43,887 bases of DNA from Syntrophobacterales bacterium (lineage in GTDB: Bacteria > Desulfobacterota > Desulfobaccia > Desulfobaccales > 0-14-0-80-60-11): NCBI GenBank assembly GCA_023512475.1, contig JAILZL010000024.1, positions 1-43,887 of the forward strand, given 5' to 3'. Shown piece after piece: positions 3,453 to 43,887 of the stretch. The notes under the pieces are model-generated. The model did no database searches, was not told the DNA's origin, and saw only the letters and a list, made by a program, of their open reading frames with translations. Numbering within the stretch: the first letter of the stretch is position 1; every line of letters begins with the position of its first letter. Both the position numbers and the translations under genes were made by a program.

Positions 3453-5126
3453 TCAGGCGAGATACTTGTTGGTGATATGCTGCTGGATAATGGCCAGGAC
3501 ATTGTTCACCAGCCAGTAGATCACCAGCCCGGCGGCGAAATTGAGAAAGAGAAAGGTGAAGATGACGGGCAGAAACATCATCATCTTGGCCTGGGTGGGA
3601 TCGCCGGCGCTGGGGGTCATCTTCTGCTGGATCACCATGGAGGCCCCCATGATGATGGGGGTGATGAGGAGCGGATCCTTGGCGGAGAGGTCCGCCAGCC
3701 AGACGATGTCCGTCCCGGGCAGGGTGGGGATGAAGGCCGCATGCCTCAGCTCGATGGCGTAGCTGAGAATATTGTACAAGGCAATGAAGACCGGTAGCTG
3801 CAGGAGCATGGGCAGGCAGCCGCCCAGCGGGTTCACCTTGAAGGTGCGGTACAGGGCCATGAGCTCCCGGTTCATGGCCTCCCGGTCGTCTTTGTATTTC
3901 TCCCGGATCTGGGCCACCCGGGGCTGCAGGCGCTGCATCTCCTTCATGGATTTGAAGCTTTTGTGATTGGGCCACAGGAAGACCAACCGGGTGAGGAGGG
4001 TCAAAAGGACCAGGGACCAGCCGTAGTTGTGGCAGAGGCGGTCGATGAATTTCAGCAGATACAGCAGCGGTTTGGCCAGGATATCGAACCAGCCGAAGTG
4101 CACCAGGCGCTCCAGCCCCAGCCCGGCGGCGGTCAGGGCGGCCGTTTCCTTGGGGCCGGCGTAAAGGGTGAAGGCGGCCTGGGTGCTCTGGCCGGGGGTC
4201 ACGCTGAAAGGCAGGCTGACCTGGGCGGCCAGGGCGGCGGCGGCCGGCTGGCGCAGGTGCACCGTGCCCTGGGCCTGCTGCGCCGGGGCCAAGGCCAGGA
4301 GGAAATAGCCTTCGTCCAGGACGGCCCAATCCAGTTTGCCGGCAAAGCTCACCGGCGCCTTCAGCCCGGCATGGGTCTCCTCCAGGCGGCGGTTGATCAG
4401 GGTATGGGCCATAAGGTAGCCCTTGCGGTCCGCCGCCTCGCTGGCACTGAGGCCCACCTCCAGCTGGCCTTCCCCGCCCTGGGGGGCGCGGCTGTGGGCC
4501 TGCACCTCCAGGTCCACCACGTATTTCCGGGCGTGGAAGCGATAGGTGCGGGTGAGGGTGACCCCCTGGGGGGTGACGGCGGTGAAGCGGAGGGTGGCGC
4601 TCTGGTCGCCCTCCAGGGTCAGCTCGGCCCGGTCGGCCTCATAATGGAGGTGGGCCGGCACCTGCAGGGTGGGCCCGCTGAGGCTGAGGGTGAGGGGCAG
4701 GTCCTGGCCCGGGGCCGGCCGCACCAGCTCCTTTAAGGGCGCCTGGGAGGTTTCCGGATCCCGCCAGCGCTCCAGTTCCAGGCTGAAAAACCCCAGGGAG
4801 AGGGTGTAGACCCTCTCGAAGGGGAGCCGGTCCCGGTATTTTTTCAGGCGAAAGCTCTTGAGGGCCGCGCCCTGCTCGGTGAAGACCGCCCGGTACAGGG
4901 GGGTGTCCACCACGATGTCCCGGGCCGGGCGGACGGCGGCCCGGACCGGGGGCCCGGGGGGCGGCTCCGGCACCGGGGTGAGGGCCACCGGCGGGGAGGG
5001 CGCCGCGGGTGTGGTCTCCGGCACCGGCGCCGGAGGCAGGGTCTTTTTGGTCTTCTCCCCCAGATACATGAAGAACATGAAGATGAGAAAACTGAGGGTC
5101 AGGGCAAGCAAAGCCCGTTTTTCCAT
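3453..5126 (-). CDS. yidC: Membrane protein insertase YidC (Oxa1 family)
   Basis: The 557-residue protein has the Gram-negative YidC plan: an N-terminal membrane segment (ALLALTLSFLIFMFFMYLG), a Pro-rich linker, a large periplasmic domain to about residue 330, and five C-terminal membrane segments with the 60KD_IMP signature (NPLGGCLPMLLQLPVFIALY). YidC inserts and folds inner-membrane proteins with or without SecYEG. A Lys/Arg-rich cytoplasmic loop follows TRLVFLWPNHKSF, as in other family members. The C-terminus is short and ends in NKYLA. It sits between yidD and jag in the standard order. Confidence 0.96.
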   Translation of the reverse strand: MEKRALLALTLSFLIFMFFMYLGEKTKKTLPPAPVPETTPAAPSPPVALTPVPEPPPGPPVRAAVRPARDIVVDTPLYRAVFTEQGAALKSFRLKKYRDRLPFERVYTLSLGFFSLELERWRDPETSQAPLKELVRPAPGQDLPLTLSLSGPTLQVPAHLHYEADRAELTLEGDQSATLRFTAVTPQGVTLTRTYRFHARKYVVDLEVQAHSRAPQGGEGQLEVGLSASEAADRKGYLMAHTLINRRLEETHAGLKAPVSFAGKLDWAVLDEGYFLLALAPAQQAQGTVHLRQPAAAALAAQVSLPFSVTPGQSTQAAFTLYAGPKETAALTAAGLGLERLVHFGWFDILAKPLLYLLKFIDRLCHNYGWSLVLLTLLTRLVFLWPNHKSFKSMKEMQRLQPRVAQIREKYKDDREAMNRELMALYRTFKVNPLGGCLPMLLQLPVFIALYNILSYAIELRHAAFIPTLPGTDIVWLADLSAKDPLLITPIIMGASMVIQQKMTPSAGDPTQAKMMMFLPVIFTFLFLNFAAGLVIYWLVNNVLAIIQQHITNKYLA

Positions 5127-37869: not shown

Positions 37870-37920
37870 AGGGCACCTTTACCTCACAAGTTCCAGGTTT
37901 TGCCGAAAGGAGGGGCCGGC

Positions 37921-38373
37921 ATGCGGAGGGTGAGCATTGTGGTGGTCGTTCTGGGCCTCGGCCTCCTGGCCGGCCTCTTTGCCGCCTTCGGCCCGCCGGG
38001 GTTATACGCCAAATCCGAGACCCCGGAATTCTGCGCCGGCTGCCACAACATGGCCCCGCAGTATGAGGCCTGGTTCCACGTGGGGGCCCACCGGGGCATT
38101 ACCTGTGTGGACTGCCACCTGCCCAATGAGAATTTCGCCGTGCACCTCACCTGGAAAGCTCTGACCGGCATGCGGGACCTGATGGAGTGGCACCTGGGGC
38201 TGGTCTCCGAGGACCCCCGGGCCTCGGAGCGCACCCGCACCTGGATCCAGGCCAACTGTCAGCGCTGCCACGGCGAGATCATGGCCCGGATCAACGAGGA
38301 CCGCTGGTGCTGGACCTGCCACCGGCAGTTCCACCATAAAACCACCGGGGCCGTCATGGCCCAGATCCCGTAA
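37921..38373 (+). CDS. nrfH: Tetrahaem cytochrome c NrfH, membrane quinol dehydrogenase
   Basis: The 150-residue protein has an N-terminal membrane anchor (SIVVVVLGLGLLAGLFAAFG) and four CxxCH haem sites: CAGCH, CVDCH, CQRCH and CWTCH. NrfH takes electrons from menaquinol and passes them to NrfA in the periplasm. The first haem segment (ETPEFCAGCHNMAP) and the HVGAHRGITCVDCH spacing are typical. AAGGAGG 6 nt upstream fixes ATG 37921. nrfA follows after 24 nt. Confidence 0.95.
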   Translation: MRRVSIVVVVLGLGLLAGLFAAFGPPGLYAKSETPEFCAGCHNMAPQYEAWFHVGAHRGITCVDCHLPNENFAVHLTWKALTGMRDLMEWHLGLVSEDPRASERTRTWIQANCQRCHGEIMARINEDRWCWTCHRQFHHKTTGAVMAQIP

Positions 38374-38397
38374 TCGAGGCGCGGGAGGGCGTCAAGC

Positions 38398-39927
38398 ATG
38401 AAACGGAGCATGGTGCTGGTCGGTGTGGTGGTGGCCTCCTTCCTGGGGGCCCTGAGCTTCTCCCTCTCCTGTGCGCCCCCCAAGCCGGAGCCGGTAAAGA
38501 CCGGCACCATCCCCGACGGCGAGATCAATCCGGCGGTCTGGGGCCAGGTCTATCCCCTGGAATACGACCGCTGGAAGATGACCAAGGATCCCAAGCCCGC
38601 GGGGATGAGCAAATACAAGCGGGGCTACGACACCGATAAGGTCATCTATGACAAGCTGAGCCAGTTTCCCTATCTGGCCCTCCTGTACCATGGCTGGGGC
38701 TTCGGGATCGAATACAACGAACCCCGGGGCCACTGGTACATGGTCATCGACCAGCTGGAGATCGACCCCTCCCGGCTGGGGGCCGGGGGCGTCTGCCTGA
38801 GCTGCAAGACTCCATATGCCGTTCCCCTGGAGAAACAGCTGGGGCCGGAGTACTTCAAAATGAAGTACATCGACGCCCACGCTTTGATCCCCCAGGAATT
38901 CCAGGAGCTGGGGGTGGCCTGCATTGAATGCCACGACAACCGGACCATGGGCCTCAGGCTCTACCACCCCGCGGCTCTGAAATCCTTCCGGTTCATCGGC
39001 CAGGACCCGGAGAAAATGACCCGCCAGGAGCTGAGGTCGGCGGTCTGCGGCCAGTGCCACGTCACCTACATCATCCCCCGGGACCAGGACATGAAGTCCA
39101 TGGACCTCTTCTTCCCCTGGCAGGGCAGCAAACCCGGAGACATCTCCATTGAGAACATCATCAGGGTGATCAAAAAGGAGCCCGGTTATTATCAGAGTGA
39201 GTGGGGCACCGGGGAATGGGTCCAGAAGGTGACGGGCTTCAAGGTGGCCTTCATCCGCCATCCGGAATATGAGTTTTATACCAAAAACAGCGTGCATTAC
39301 CAGGCGGGGGTGGCCTGCGCCGACTGCCACATGCCCTATATCCGCGTCGGGGCCAACAAGATCTCCGACCACGATGTCACCAGCCCCCTGAAGACCAACA
39401 TGCGGGCCTGCCAGCAGTGCCACACCGAATCGGCCCAGTGGCTCAAGGACCGGGTCCTGGCCCACCAGGACCGCACCGTGTCCCTGATGCTGCGCTCCGG
39501 TTATGCCACCGCGGTGGCGGCCAAACTCTTTGAAAAGGTGCACGCCGCCCAGAAAGAGGGCAAACCGATCGACCCCCAGCTCTATGAGCAGGCCAAGGAC
39601 CTTTACCTGGAGGCCCTCTACCGGGTGATTTACATCAATGCCGAAAATTCGGTGGGCTTCCACAATCCCAGCGAGGCGGGCCGCATCCTGGGGGATGCCC
39701 TGGCCTTTGCCGGCCGCAGTGAGGCCCTCCTGCGCCAGGCCCTGGCCCAGGCGGGGGTGGCGCTGCCCGCGGTCATTGACCTGGAGCTGCACAAATATCT
39801 CAACAACCGGGGCAAGAAGCCTTTGAACTACAAGCCGGAGCAGCTCTTTACCGACCCTTATGGCAACCAGGAGAAGCTGACCCCCACTCCCTCGCTGGGG
39901 ATCACCGCGGCCGCCGCCCCGAAATAG
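38398..39927 (+). CDS. nrfA: Pentahaem cytochrome c nitrite reductase NrfA
   Basis: The 509-residue enzyme reduces nitrite to ammonium in the periplasm, taking six electrons. The catalytic haem is bound by CLSCK (Lys ligand), and four further haems by CIECH, CGQCH, CADCH and CQQCH. The signal region (VVVASFLGALSFSLSC) may give a lipoprotein or a cleaved product. GGGAGGG 8 nt upstream fixes ATG 38398. The C-terminal Ala/Pro tail is short. With NrfH it forms the standard ammonification complex; nitrite detoxification is an alternative role. Confidence 0.96.
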   Translation: MKRSMVLVGVVVASFLGALSFSLSCAPPKPEPVKTGTIPDGEINPAVWGQVYPLEYDRWKMTKDPKPAGMSKYKRGYDTDKVIYDKLSQFPYLALLYHGWGFGIEYNEPRGHWYMVIDQLEIDPSRLGAGGVCLSCKTPYAVPLEKQLGPEYFKMKYIDAHALIPQEFQELGVACIECHDNRTMGLRLYHPAALKSFRFIGQDPEKMTRQELRSAVCGQCHVTYIIPRDQDMKSMDLFFPWQGSKPGDISIENIIRVIKKEPGYYQSEWGTGEWVQKVTGFKVAFIRHPEYEFYTKNSVHYQAGVACADCHMPYIRVGANKISDHDVTSPLKTNMRACQQCHTESAQWLKDRVLAHQDRTVSLMLRSGYATAVAAKLFEKVHAAQKEGKPIDPQLYEQAKDLYLEALYRVIYINAENSVGFHNPSEAGRILGDALAFAGRSEALLRQALAQAGVALPAVIDLELHKYLNNRGKKPLNYKPEQLFTDPYGNQEKLTPTPSLGITAAAAPK

Positions 39928-39980
39928 CTTCCGGGCGCGACCCGGGAAAACCGGAGCCGTCCCATTCCCCGGGGGGGGCT

Positions 39981-40018
39981 GGGAGAGGGGCAGGAGGCGA
40001 TGCCCCTTCCCCTCTCCC
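39981..40018 (+). other. Strong hairpin after nrfA, no T-run
   Basis: GGGAGAGGGG (39981-39990) can pair with CCCCTCTCCC (40009-40018), with an inner alternative GGGGCA/TGCCCC pairing. No T-run follows, so it may stabilise the nrfHA 3' end or be processed rather than terminate. Confidence 0.4.
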
Positions 40019-40142
40019 TCCAGGGGCAACGCCTCACCTCAGGGGCCGCTGGGCTGCCGCCCGGCCCCTCTGGCGGGCTTGACCGCATCCGGGCTCCCGA
40101 TTAAACTGTTCCTGTTTTCATTCCCCCGAAAAAAGGTGACCC

Positions 40143-40526
40143 ATGCAACGTCCCTTGTGGCTGACCCTTACAGTCCTGGCGGTGGCCGCCGGCCTGGCTC
40201 TGGCGCAGCCCCTTTCCGACCTGGCGGCGAAAGGGAAGAAAATTTACGAAGACAACTGCGCCGACTGCCATCGCAGCAGCGGCGAGGGCCTGCCGGTGAA
40301 GTTCCCGGCCCTGAAAGGCAACGCCTTTGTCCAGGGGGGCCCGGACGGCGTCATCCAGGTGCTTCTGAACGGCCGCCGGGGCAAGATGGGCCGCATGCCC
40401 GCCTGGCGGGAGTATCTGAGCAATGAGGAGATCGCCGCGGTGGCCAGCTACATCCGCACCGCCTGGGGCAATCAGGCCCCGGCGATCACGCCGGAGCAGG
40501 TGGCCGCGGCCCGGAAGACCAAGTAA
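40143..40526 (+). CDS. Class I cytochrome c, periplasmic
   Basis: The 127-residue protein has a signal peptide (LWLTLTVLAVAAGLALA, cut near AQP) and one haem site, CADCH, with the axial Met likely in GRMPAW and a C-terminal helix NEEIAAVASYIRTAW. It is a small electron carrier. An A-rich AAAAAAGGTGA precedes ATG 40143. It lies 215 nt after nrfA in the same direction and may serve nitrite reduction or another periplasmic route. Confidence 0.9.
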   Translation: MQRPLWLTLTVLAVAAGLALAQPLSDLAAKGKKIYEDNCADCHRSSGEGLPVKFPALKGNAFVQGGPDGVIQVLLNGRRGKMGRMPAWREYLSNEEIAAVASYIRTAWGNQAPAITPEQVAAARKTK

Positions 40527-40579: not shown

Positions 40580-42979
40580 TCACCGGGGTGCCGGCGGTTT
40601 GCGCTTCGGGGTCACCGCCTCCCCCCAGAGGCACAGTTGCCGGGGCGCGGCCGGGAGCCGGGGCGCCCGGGGGTGTTTCTCCTCCCTTTTCCCCACCCCG
40701 TACAGTCCCTCCTCCACCTCCCGGAGCGCCCGCCCCAAAAGCTCCAGATAAAAGCCCGCGTCATAGTCTTCCAGGCCCTCCAGGAAGGGCGCGGCCACCA
40801 CCCGGAGTTCCGGAGGGCCGCCCGTGGGCTCCCGGTGCACATAGCGCACCTTCTCCCCCGGCACCAGAGTGATCCCAGCGTCCTGCAGCTGCCGGGCCGC
40901 CTGGGCCACGGCCGTCCTGACCCGGAAGTCCTCCGGCGCCTGGGAGAGCACCCGGGTGATCACCAGTTCCTGGGGGAGGAGCCCCCCCTCCTGAAGGCGC
41001 TGGCGAAAGCCCCCGGCCACCTCCCGGAGACGGGATCGCACCGCCGCCAGCTCCGCGGGGGTGCCGGCCCGGGCCGCTTCCGCCAGCACGGCCTCCTGGG
41101 CCCGCCGGATGACCGGGGGGGTGTCCCGCCGCCGGCAGAGCAGGCCCCGTACCTTGAGGGTGCCGTCCTCAAAGACCCCGAAATAGCGGGTGGCCACCGG
41201 CCGGGTGGGCTCCTGCCTCGAGGGCAGAAACGCCAGCCAGCGGTAGATGCCCTCCAGGGCCAGGGTCACCCCGGTGACCCGGGAGATCCGGTCACAGAGT
41301 TCCTCCAGCTCCGCCCGGGTCATGCCCGGCTTCTGGATCCACAGACAGTCGGTGAGCCCGTGCAGCACCCGGAAGCCCGCGGCTTCCGCCATCTCCTTGG
41401 CGGTGAGGAGCTTGTCCCGGCCATGGGCGGTCACCGCCTCATGGGCCTCAATGCGCCCGAACCGGGCATTTTTGTACCCCAGATAGCCGAAGCAGGTGAC
41501 CAGCATCCACTTCAGGGCATTCTGCCGCTCCCGGTAGGAGGCGGCCCACTCGGGGGGCACCTCCCGGGCCCGGGCCTTGAGGCGGGCCCGCAACTCCAGA
41601 ATCGGCCGCAGCGTCCGGGGCACCAACCCCTCCCGCCGCCCGCAGAGACGATACCCCGCCTCGGGAACGGCTGCCGGGGGGAAGGGGCCAGGGACCTGGG
41701 GTTCCTGCCCCTCCCCCGGGCCCCTTAAGGATGGGGGGAGGGGGCGTGGGGCAGGGGGTAAGGGGCTGCGCCTCTGAGCCCCCTTTCCCGCACAGCACCC
41801 GCAGTTCACCGTTTCGGGGGAGAGGTTGTGGGTGGTCATGATGGTGGGGTACATGGAGGCGAAGTCCAGTTCCGCCACCTGCCAGTGCAGGCCCACAGGG
41901 GGCATGAAAGTGAGGCCGCCTTTGTCGATGGTGAGGAGGTCGCCGGCGGTTTTGAAGTCCTCCGGGGTGCCCTTGCGCCAGGGGATGAGGATGCCGTCGG
42001 CCACGGCCCGGGCCAGCTGCATGGAGGTGATGAGGGTCCCGGGGCTGGCCCGGGCGGCCTGCTGCAGGGGGAGCTGGCCCAGGCGGCTGATCTGCACCAG
42101 GCCGGCCAGGCCCGCCTCCCGCCAGAAGAAGGAGTTTTTCCGGTCCACGTGCCAGCGGCCGTAGAAGGGGGTGGAGGGGCCCTGATAGACGATGCGGCCA
42201 TAGGAGAAATAGGTGCGGCCGCCCCGGCCCCGGCGGGACGGCGGGGCGGGCTCCCGGTCCAGGGGGAGGGGCACGCGGTGGCGGCGGCTCAAGCGCAGCA
42301 GGGGCGGCAGGATCTCCTCATCCCCCCAGTCGCTCACCACCAGGTCCGGGTCCACCTGGCGCAGGATGCGGGCCACCTCCCGGAGGGCCTGGGCCGGAGG
42401 GGCCCCCTCCAGCTCCAGGGTGCGGCCTTCGAAGCTCACAGCCAGGCCGTTGCCGGCCTCCAGGGGGATGAGGGGATCCCGGGTGAGGGAGAGGTGCAGG
42501 GTCACCAGAGGCGGCAGGGAGAGCTCCAGGGCGAACTGCTCCTCCAGGGGCGCCAGGCCCCGGAGACGGTTGCCGGTGAGCTCCAGCTCATACCAGGCGC
42601 AGGGCCACACCTTCCGGGAGTACAGGTAAGAGGCGGCCACCTCCAGGTCGGCGTTGTAGACCCCGATCCTGTCCCCCAGGCGTCCCAGCCAGGCCTGCAG
42701 CCGGGGGAGATGGGCGTAGGCCGCGAGCTCCACCCCCACCACCGGCAGCTCCGCCCCGGACCACAGGTCCCGGCCGCGGGCGGGAAAGACCCGGCGCACC
42801 CCGGGCCGGCCGGCCAGGGCCCGGGCCAGACGCCGGCGTTCCTCCTCCCCGCCCCCCAGATAGAGGCGATAGAAAAACTCGTCCTCCACCCGCAGGCGGG
42901 CCCCCTCCGGGGTGAGGAACCAGAGGACCATCCGGTCCCTGAGGGGATAGAGGTCGAAGAGCCAGCCCCGGGCGACCAT
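40580..42979 (-). CDS. Divergent B-family DNA polymerase with degenerate exonuclease site
   Basis: The 799-residue protein has an N-terminal exonuclease-like domain and a B-family palm. Motif A is [10 protein letters not shown] (about 371-380), motif [21 protein letters not shown] (about 483-502) and motif C HGLTDCLW (about 539-546). The Exo I site reads [11 protein letters not shown] (about 156-166), where the usual DxE is HxS, so proofreading is probably lost. In motif C the first Asp of DTD is Leu but the catalytic second Asp remains. A Pro-rich insert (about 394-433) interrupts a Cys-rich segment. It follows the coiled-coil gene with adjacent stop and start. A DNA-repair or translesion role is inferred. 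Confidence 0.85.
41748..41788. repeat. GC-rich repeat copy A, inside the polymerase gene
   Basis: GGGGCAGGGGGT begins a stretch similar to copy B (43264-43306), both ending GAGCCCC-TTTCC. It encodes part of the Pro-rich insert of the polymerase, starting Lys-Gly-Ala-Gln in both copies on the minus strand. Identity is estimated by eye at about three quarters. Confidence 0.5.
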
Positions 42980-43243
42980 TTATTCCGTCCGGCCCTCCAG
43001 GCGGCGCACCTGCTCCCTGAGCTCCGCCAGGGCCTTTTCATGCTCCAGGAGCATGGACAGGAGCATGGACTCCAGGGGCCAGGGGTTGGCGGCCGCCACC
43101 CCGGCCTGGAGATGCCGCCGGGCCGCCTCAAAGAGCCGGTCCAGATACACCTGATCCTCCCGGCGCAGGGCCCGGCGGAACTTGAGCCAGCGCTGCCGCT
43201 CCGCCTCCCACACCTGACTGTAGGGCACTACCGTCCGTCCCAT
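42980..43243 (-). CDS. Small coiled-coil protein in the polymerase operon
   Basis: The 87-residue protein has a basic start (MGRTVVPYSQVWEAERQRWL) and a leucine-rich helix (LLSMLLEHEKALAELREQV) likely to form a coiled coil. I do not recognise it. GGGAG eight nt upstream fixes ATG 43243. Its TAA is followed at once by the polymerase ATG, so translation is coupled and a complex with the polymerase is plausible. Confidence 0.7.
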   Translation of the reverse strand: MGRTVVPYSQVWEAERQRWLKFRRALRREDQVYLDRLFEAARRHLQAGVAAANPWPLESMLLSMLLEHEKALAELREQVRRLEGRTE

Positions 43244-43256
43244 GGCGATCTCTCCC

Positions 43257-43814
43257 TCAGGGCGGGGCAGGGGGTCCGGCGGCTGACGTCCCCTGAGCCC
43301 CTTTCCTGATCTCCCCCACCACCTCCACCAGCGCCCGGAGCCGGCGGCCGAAATGCAGCGGGGCGGCCCCCCGGGGCCGGGGCGGCTGCAGGAGCACAAG
43401 CGGGGCCCGGGCTTTGGCCGCCGCCAAGGCCCGCAGAAGCTCCCCGAACAACCGCCGGCGCTCCGGCAGCGGCACCTGGTCATCATAAAACAGACTCACC
43501 GGCCCCAGAATCACCACCAGCGTGCCGGGCCCCACCACCGCCGGCAGTCTCTCCCGCGCCAGCCGGACCAGCTGATGGCAGGTGAAGGCCCGGGCCACCC
43601 GGACCCGGCTCAGGGCCTCCCCCACCCCCACCCCGCGGAGCGCCGCCTCCCGCCCCAGGGCATAAGGGTCAAAGAGATTGGCCCCATCCACCACCACCAC
43701 CCGCGCCCCCCGGGCCACCCCCCAGGCCGCCGCCTGGGCCGCCAGCTCCCGCACCCCCGCCCCCCAGACCAACACCGCCCGTCCGGGCCGCAGGTGGAGG
43801 CGAGACCAGAGGGG
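43257..43814 (-). CDS. RecA/KaiC-like protein, 5' end cut by the contig end
   Basis: At least 186 residues are present. The segment ARVVVVDGANLFDPYALGREA and VRVARAFTCHQLVRL match the RecA/RadB/KaiC-like ATPase fold, and LVVILGPVSLFYDDQ sits where Walker B is expected. No Walker A (GxxxxGKT) is visible in the sequenced part; it may lie in the missing 5' end or be absent (WGAGVRELA). The frame runs open into the poly-G. The C-terminus (KGAQGTSAAGPPAPP) is made of repeat copy B. It begins the operon with the coiled-coil and polymerase genes. Confidence 0.7.
   Translation of the reverse strand, partial: PLWSRLHLRPGRAVLVWGAGVRELAAQAAAWGVARGARVVVVDGANLFDPYALGREAALRGVGVGEALSRVRVARAFTCHQLVRLARERLPAVVGPGTLVVILGPVSLFYDDQVPLPERRRLFGELLRALAAAKARAPLVLLQPPRPRGAAPLHFGRRLRALVEVVGEIRKGAQGTSAAGPPAPP
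43264..43306. repeat. GC-rich repeat copy B, end of the RecA/KaiC-like gene
   Basis: Similar to copy A (41748-41788) with a few substitutions and a short gap. It supplies the last codons of the RecA/KaiC-like gene and overlaps the spacer before the coiled-coil gene. It suggests a small dispersed element. Confidence 0.5.

Positions 43815-43887
<73 letters not shown>

Follow-up and report, generated by a model that had tools for sequence, protein, structure and literature searches.

Genes and features at the locus

The window, as the stretch of 43,887 nucleotides analysed here is called, is the entire contig C63 of a 2.78 Mb genome that is 99.99% complete. Close to its end, a set of three genes on the minus strand (40580-43815) codes for a DNA polymerase of the PolB2 (G2) group, the small protein PPB2 (partner of PolB2) and a RecA-fold protein referred to as iRadA, for which only the 3' part of the gene is present. 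All features within these genes are on the minus strand. An earlier sequence-only reading had listed three open reading frames for a polymerase, a small protein and a RecA-fold protein, and all three are indeed there. The PolB2 gene (40580-42979) is full length with an ATG start and encodes 799 aa; it was assigned based on PF00136, PRK05761, a phylogenetic tree and a structural model. The stop codon of the PPB2 gene (42980-43243; 87 aa with the N-terminus MGRT, assigned by homologue alignment) abuts the ATG of PolB2 with 0 intergenic bases. A frame at 42980-43486 is merely the longest open frame around PPB2, and the gene itself is 42980-43243. Upstream, the stop codon of the iRadA frame (43257-43815; about 184 aa) is separated from the PPB2 start by 13 nt. 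The contig ends in a 72-nt poly-G run (43816-43887; G on the plus strand).

Based on the PolB2 sequence, the closest relatives are metagenome genomes that carry the labels Desulfobacca, Deltaproteobacteria and Syntrophales; the bacterium, therefore, most likely belongs to the Desulfobacca family or stands near it. Convergent to PolB2, the region 37900-40526 on the plus strand contains an NrfH-like cytochrome ORF, a cytochrome c552 of the NrfA type (PF02335, E 1.6e-139) and a small c-type cytochrome, which suggests a nitrite reductase cluster.

The PolB2 polymerase

PolB2 matches DNA_pol_B in Pfam (PF00136, E 8e-23) and archaeal-type models in NCBIfam, up to PRK05761 (E 6e-113), and the top PDB match of its AlphaFold model (pLDDT 85) is the archaeal Pyrobaculum PolB (E 6e-42). 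In a maximum-likelihood tree that had three intact PolBs of the same phylum as outgroup (Pol II, PolB1 and PolB3 were left out) and that, because long branches were flagged at the outgroup, is taken for PolB2 membership alone and not for the direction of transfer, the window polymerase joins the PolB2 of archaea and bacteria with a support of 100/100 and is separate from canonical PolB. Within PolB2, it falls into a starred 100/100 group of seven close relatives.

The motif states were read against three exonuclease-intact PolBs from the same phylum. In this alignment, LDIET of Exo I in the intact PolBs corresponds to LSLT in PolB2, and there is no DxE at Exo I in either alignment register, the placement of this motif shifting by one residue with the reading. 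At Exo II, HNLFNFD corresponds to DWGDEEI with Ile in place of Asp, and Exo III of the intact PolBs falls in a deletion in PolB2. In other words, the alignment yields no intact exonuclease site, and the loss of the exonuclease claimed from the sequence is borne out. So is the alteration of motif C (41345-41359; residues 541-545), which reads GLTDC compared to (V/L)DTDG, with Leu542 replacing the first Asp and Asp544 being kept. Motif A (41843-41866; residues 372-379, DFASMYPT) is intact, and each of the 12 PolB2 rows compared has retained Asp372 of motif A, Lys490 of motif B and Asp544 of motif C. Primer-independent PolBs also lack the first Asp of motif C; for the window polymerase, the gene context and the best matches point to an archaeal-type PolB. 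The intact Exo I-III of a canonical proofreading PolB (Pol II, G3) are absent from the window polymerase, and its motif states match the published B2/G2 signature, i.e. an unconserved ExoI, a missing ExoIII and a single MotifC Asp (PMC7544198).

Asp279-Arg280 (42140-42145) represent a candidate for the D(K/R) motif, whose described role is to contact the PPB2 arm (PMC11791011). Asp279 is invariant in alignment A4, from which one locus (L058) with a stop codon was left out. We considered that the Asp of this motif could be the former Exo III Asp and rejected this idea; the alignment points to another conserved Asp (in GRxVxDT) and places Exo III in a gap.

The C-terminus of PolB2 (RQLCLWGE) contains the beta-clamp-binding-like motif QLCLWG (40622-40639; residues 781-786). 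Two PolB2s from the same genus have QLRLWG at the same place, so that a clamp-like tail is present in each of the three genus members for which the C-terminus is readable, and several Bacteroidota-type PolB2s have QLDLF, QGSLF or QQELF there. A beta-clamp motif has been reported on bacterial PolB2 or iRadA, and the motif described here agrees with the reported pattern (PMC11791011).

In the fingers of PolB2, an in-frame dispersed-repeat insert (41681-41782) takes up about residues 400-433; it is preceded by a CxCC cluster and followed by a YxxC. The DNA of this insert is similar to 21 other places in the same genome (E 2e-10 to 0.009), and residues 400-433 have a pLDDT under 50 and are predicted to be disordered. 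At the same site, relatives outside the Desulfobacca family have a short linker (e.g. CRCCENHRVPEAGYTIC), while family members have different, longer in-frame inserts (for instance, L005:7189-7356 and L009:7189-7352). Two of these family inserts also match dispersed repeats in their own and in sister genomes with tens of matches. Judged from these sequences, this looks like recurrent repeat capture at a tolerant loop in the fingers. These inserts can be seen as a natural experiment, on a small scale, on the amount of foreign sequence that a polymerase can accommodate. We also considered the more far-reaching idea that the tip of the fingers is, in the Desulfobacca family, a recurrent landing site for lineage-specific in-frame repeats, and that the disordered inserts tune the polymerase or its contacts with the partners; we regard this as improbable. 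At a second site in the fingers, after RAWLKR, repeat-like inserts of the PSPLVGEGEG type are present in the PolB2 of two loci (L013 and L016) from Syntrophaceae/Deltaproteobacteria.

Partner proteins, lexA and gene order

PPB2 begins with MGRTVVPYSQ. Among 22 aligned PPB2 homologues from several phyla, M1, G2 and R3 are invariant, and 21 have MGRT, the remaining one, which is archaeal, having MGRS. An N-terminal MGRT arm is the published signature of PPB2 (PMC11791011).

A profile of 33 iRadA homologues matches Pyrococcus RadA (E 1.5e-11), and the PDB recombinases matched by this profile are only archaeal RadA and RadB and eukaryotic Rad51/DMC1, with no bacterial RecA among them. The structural model of the window iRadA (pLDDT 91) aligns with Rad51, RadA and DMC1 over about 175 residues with VIA-align Z scores of 18-19, and Foldseek gave a similar result. 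In Pfam, the window iRadA on its own has no match, and nine of the 33 family members match PF08423. Walker A is absent from all 33 aligned homologues. Moreover, LLIVDSLTS of RadA aligns to VVILGPVSL of iRadA and, therefore, the Asp of Walker B is replaced by Gly. The RecA-fold protein, thus, fits iRadA, an inactivated paralogue of RadA/Rad51, with its N-terminal part outside of the window. The sequence-only reading had described a RecA/KaiC-like protein; because both the profile and the fold matches are to Rad51/RadA, the KaiC-like nature finds no support.

That reading had also proposed to extend the contig to obtain the full gene. On contig C36 of the same genome, lexA is directly followed by the 5' part of iRadA, in which the contig ends. 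The ends of C36 and of the window overlap by 49 nt with 42/49 identity (7 mismatches), after which the window enters the 72 G. With the gene divided between two contigs that overlap at 42/49, the iRadA junction is unproven. In our reading, both are low-quality assembly ends within one iRadA gene. Up to position 43000, other G/C runs reach at most 8 nt, and homologous iRadAs do not contain a stretch like the poly-proline encoded by the poly-G run (43816-43887). This run is probably an assembly or sequencing artefact, and its poly-proline is probably not part of the protein. The 5' part of iRadA on C36 (L122 1-208) is proline-rich, and its DNA resembles a GC-rich repeat.

In a genome from the same genus (L010), lexA (4382-5014) and the start of iRadA overlap by 4 nt. 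The orthologue in the genome under study (C36:205-816) is 92% identical and lies directly before the 5' part of iRadA. Because C36 ends in this part right after lexA, the operon is probably lexA-iRadA-PPB2-PolB2, as in the same-genus genome. More broadly, lexA is upstream of iRadA in 13 of the 33 loci with at least 3.5 kb of upstream sequence, and the loci from Bacteroidota, Ignavibacteria and Acidobacteria have no lexA upstream of iRadA. The lexA promoters have in common a TTGACA followed downstream by a TGTATAGTAT-like element. In the genome under study, the perfect palindrome GTTTAGTATTTTAAAC is present upstream of lexA (L122 819-834, contig C36). This LexA-box-like palindrome occurs once in the genome; therefore, a function as operator is plausible but unproven and, with no second perfect copy, no regulon is shown. 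When the same genome was searched for a LexA regulon with GTTTAN6TAAAC and two less strict promoter patterns, no second target stood out clearly; one match to a regulon pattern is at the very end of contig C40, where the downstream gene is missing.

The association of the three genes is highly conserved. Where at least 700 nt upstream of PolB2 are available (44 bacterial loci), PPB2 is found there in 42; where at least 2 kb are available (36 bacterial loci), iRadA-PPB2-PolB2 are present on one strand in every case, i.e. the genomic association on which the sequence-only reading had staked its proposal is found in every eligible locus. This order is also the only one reported for bacteria (PMC11791011). 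In one complete genome (G024), an IS200/REP-associated-transposase-like ORF was seen by eye upstream of PPB2 in the place expected for iRadA (L126 7857-8453); lexA is several kb further upstream and the operon may be interrupted there.

A probable PolB2 mutasome and its possible function

Based on the homology, motifs, gene order and fold reported here, and with the activity taken from relatives, we suggest that the locus is very likely a bacterial PolB2 (G2) mutasome operon for LexA-controlled, proofreading-free lesion extension. The sequence-only reading had considered the system to be poorly described. It is, in fact, already described as the PolB2 mutasome, and the window locus adds an example: the complex was predicted in detail in silico in 2025 (PMC11791011) and appears by name in a survey of bacterial polymerases from 2026 (PMC12926913). 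The locus shares with the described bacterial system the three genes, their order and orientation, the motif states, the MGRT arm, the inactive RadA fold, the lexA neighbour and a clamp-like motif, and nothing fundamental is different. Local traits are that lexA is joined to the operon by an overlap in the same-genus genome, that the fingers carry a dispersed-repeat insert, and that the clamp motif is in PolB2 and not in iRadA. The relative that has been studied experimentally is Dpo2 (PolB2) of Sulfolobus islandicus (PMC7390963, PMC8764526), which together with its PPB2 and iRadA shares the family, the single Asp in motif C, the lack of an exonuclease and a damage-linked operon. By contrast, this system is archaeal, and its clamp is PCNA and not the beta clamp. 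Also, archaeal PolB2 neighbourhoods are enriched in Orc1/Cdc6 and not in LexA (PMC11791011). For archaeal PolB2, biochemistry has been published (PMC8764526) and genetics is reported in PMC11791011; a literature search found no report of an assayed bacterial PolB2 or its mutasome, and the complex is known solely from AlphaFold models (PMC11791011).

In the mechanism that we envisage, DNA damage would relieve repression by LexA, and the three subunits would be co-expressed. They would form the predicted heteropentamer of PolB2, iRadA and three PPB2 (PMC11791011), in which, according to the published model, the PPB2 trimer would place the MGRT arm next to the DNA, in the cleft between PolB2 and iRadA, and PolB2 would hold iRadA via a Rad51-like oligomerisation motif. 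Tethering of the complex to the beta clamp would rely on the QLCLWG tail of PolB2. Mismatched or lesion-terminated primers would then be extended without proofreading, giving damage tolerance with mutations as the cost. Here, the polymerase activity, the role as an extender, the architecture of the complex, the induction by damage via LexA and the binding to the beta clamp are all carried over from relatives; in particular, we expect primer extension past lesions because of the homology to Sulfolobus Dpo2.

The loss of one of the two Asp in motif C and of all Exo motifs could also mean that PolB2 is catalytically dead and a structural or scaffolding subunit only, an idea first put forward for this family in 2008 (PMC2527604). 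However, Asp372, Lys490 and Asp544 are kept in every PolB2 row compared, and Sulfolobus Dpo2, which lacks the same Asp, has robust polymerisation activity and no exonuclease activity, and extends mismatched as well as lesion-terminated primers (PMC8764526), making a dead enzyme very unlikely. If the dead exonuclease is instead read together with the disordered repeat insert in the fingers and the gene cut by the contig end, the operon might be decaying and non-functional, and several family members do lack a detectable PolB2. Yet, the 799 codons are open with the motif A, B and C residues kept, several relatives also have repeat inserts that are in frame, the identity of PPB2 within the family is about 70-80%, and what cuts iRadA is the end of an assembled contig. 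Decay is, therefore, exceedingly improbable.

The sequence-only reading had drawn an analogy to the ImuA-ImuB-DnaE2 mutasome, and the general part of it stands: a translesion system with a B-family polymerase, a small helical protein and a RecA-fold partner, and like ImuA-ImuB-DnaE2 a multi-protein, error-prone complex under damage control. The part that does not stand concerns the third protein, which is not RecA, KaiC or ImuA. More strictly, the locus could be a mutasome of the ImuA-ImuB-DnaE2 or Pol V type in which a B-family enzyme replaces the usual polymerase. The logic of a damage repressor, a RecA-fold partner, a small accessory protein and an error-prone polymerase is the same, and the parallel to the Pol V mutasome (UmuD'2C-RecA), which likewise combines a polymerase with a recombinase homologue and a small oligomeric subunit bearing an N-terminal arm, is drawn in PMC11791011. 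However, the Pol V mutasome has a Y-family polymerase, an UmuD' dimer and an active RecA, while here the polymerase belongs to the B family and the RecA-fold protein matches RadA, RadB, Rad51 and DMC1 and no bacterial RecA among the PDB recombinases. Similarly, the cassette has no C-family DnaE2, no Y-family ImuB as the inactive subunit and no RecA-derived ImuA, and the small protein is PPB2 by its MGRT-type arm and length and not ImuB or UmuD. Thus, this assignment is almost certainly wrong.

The genome under study has a single match to a Y-family polymerase, on contig C13 and outside the PolB2 cassette. No Y-family polymerase was detectable in 13 of the 23 genomes searched, mostly from the same family or order. 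Because several genomes of the family have no detectable Y-family polymerase, PolB2 may serve there as a main bypass polymerase. The family also offers compact operons with lexA directly before the genes and a clamp motif that can be tested.
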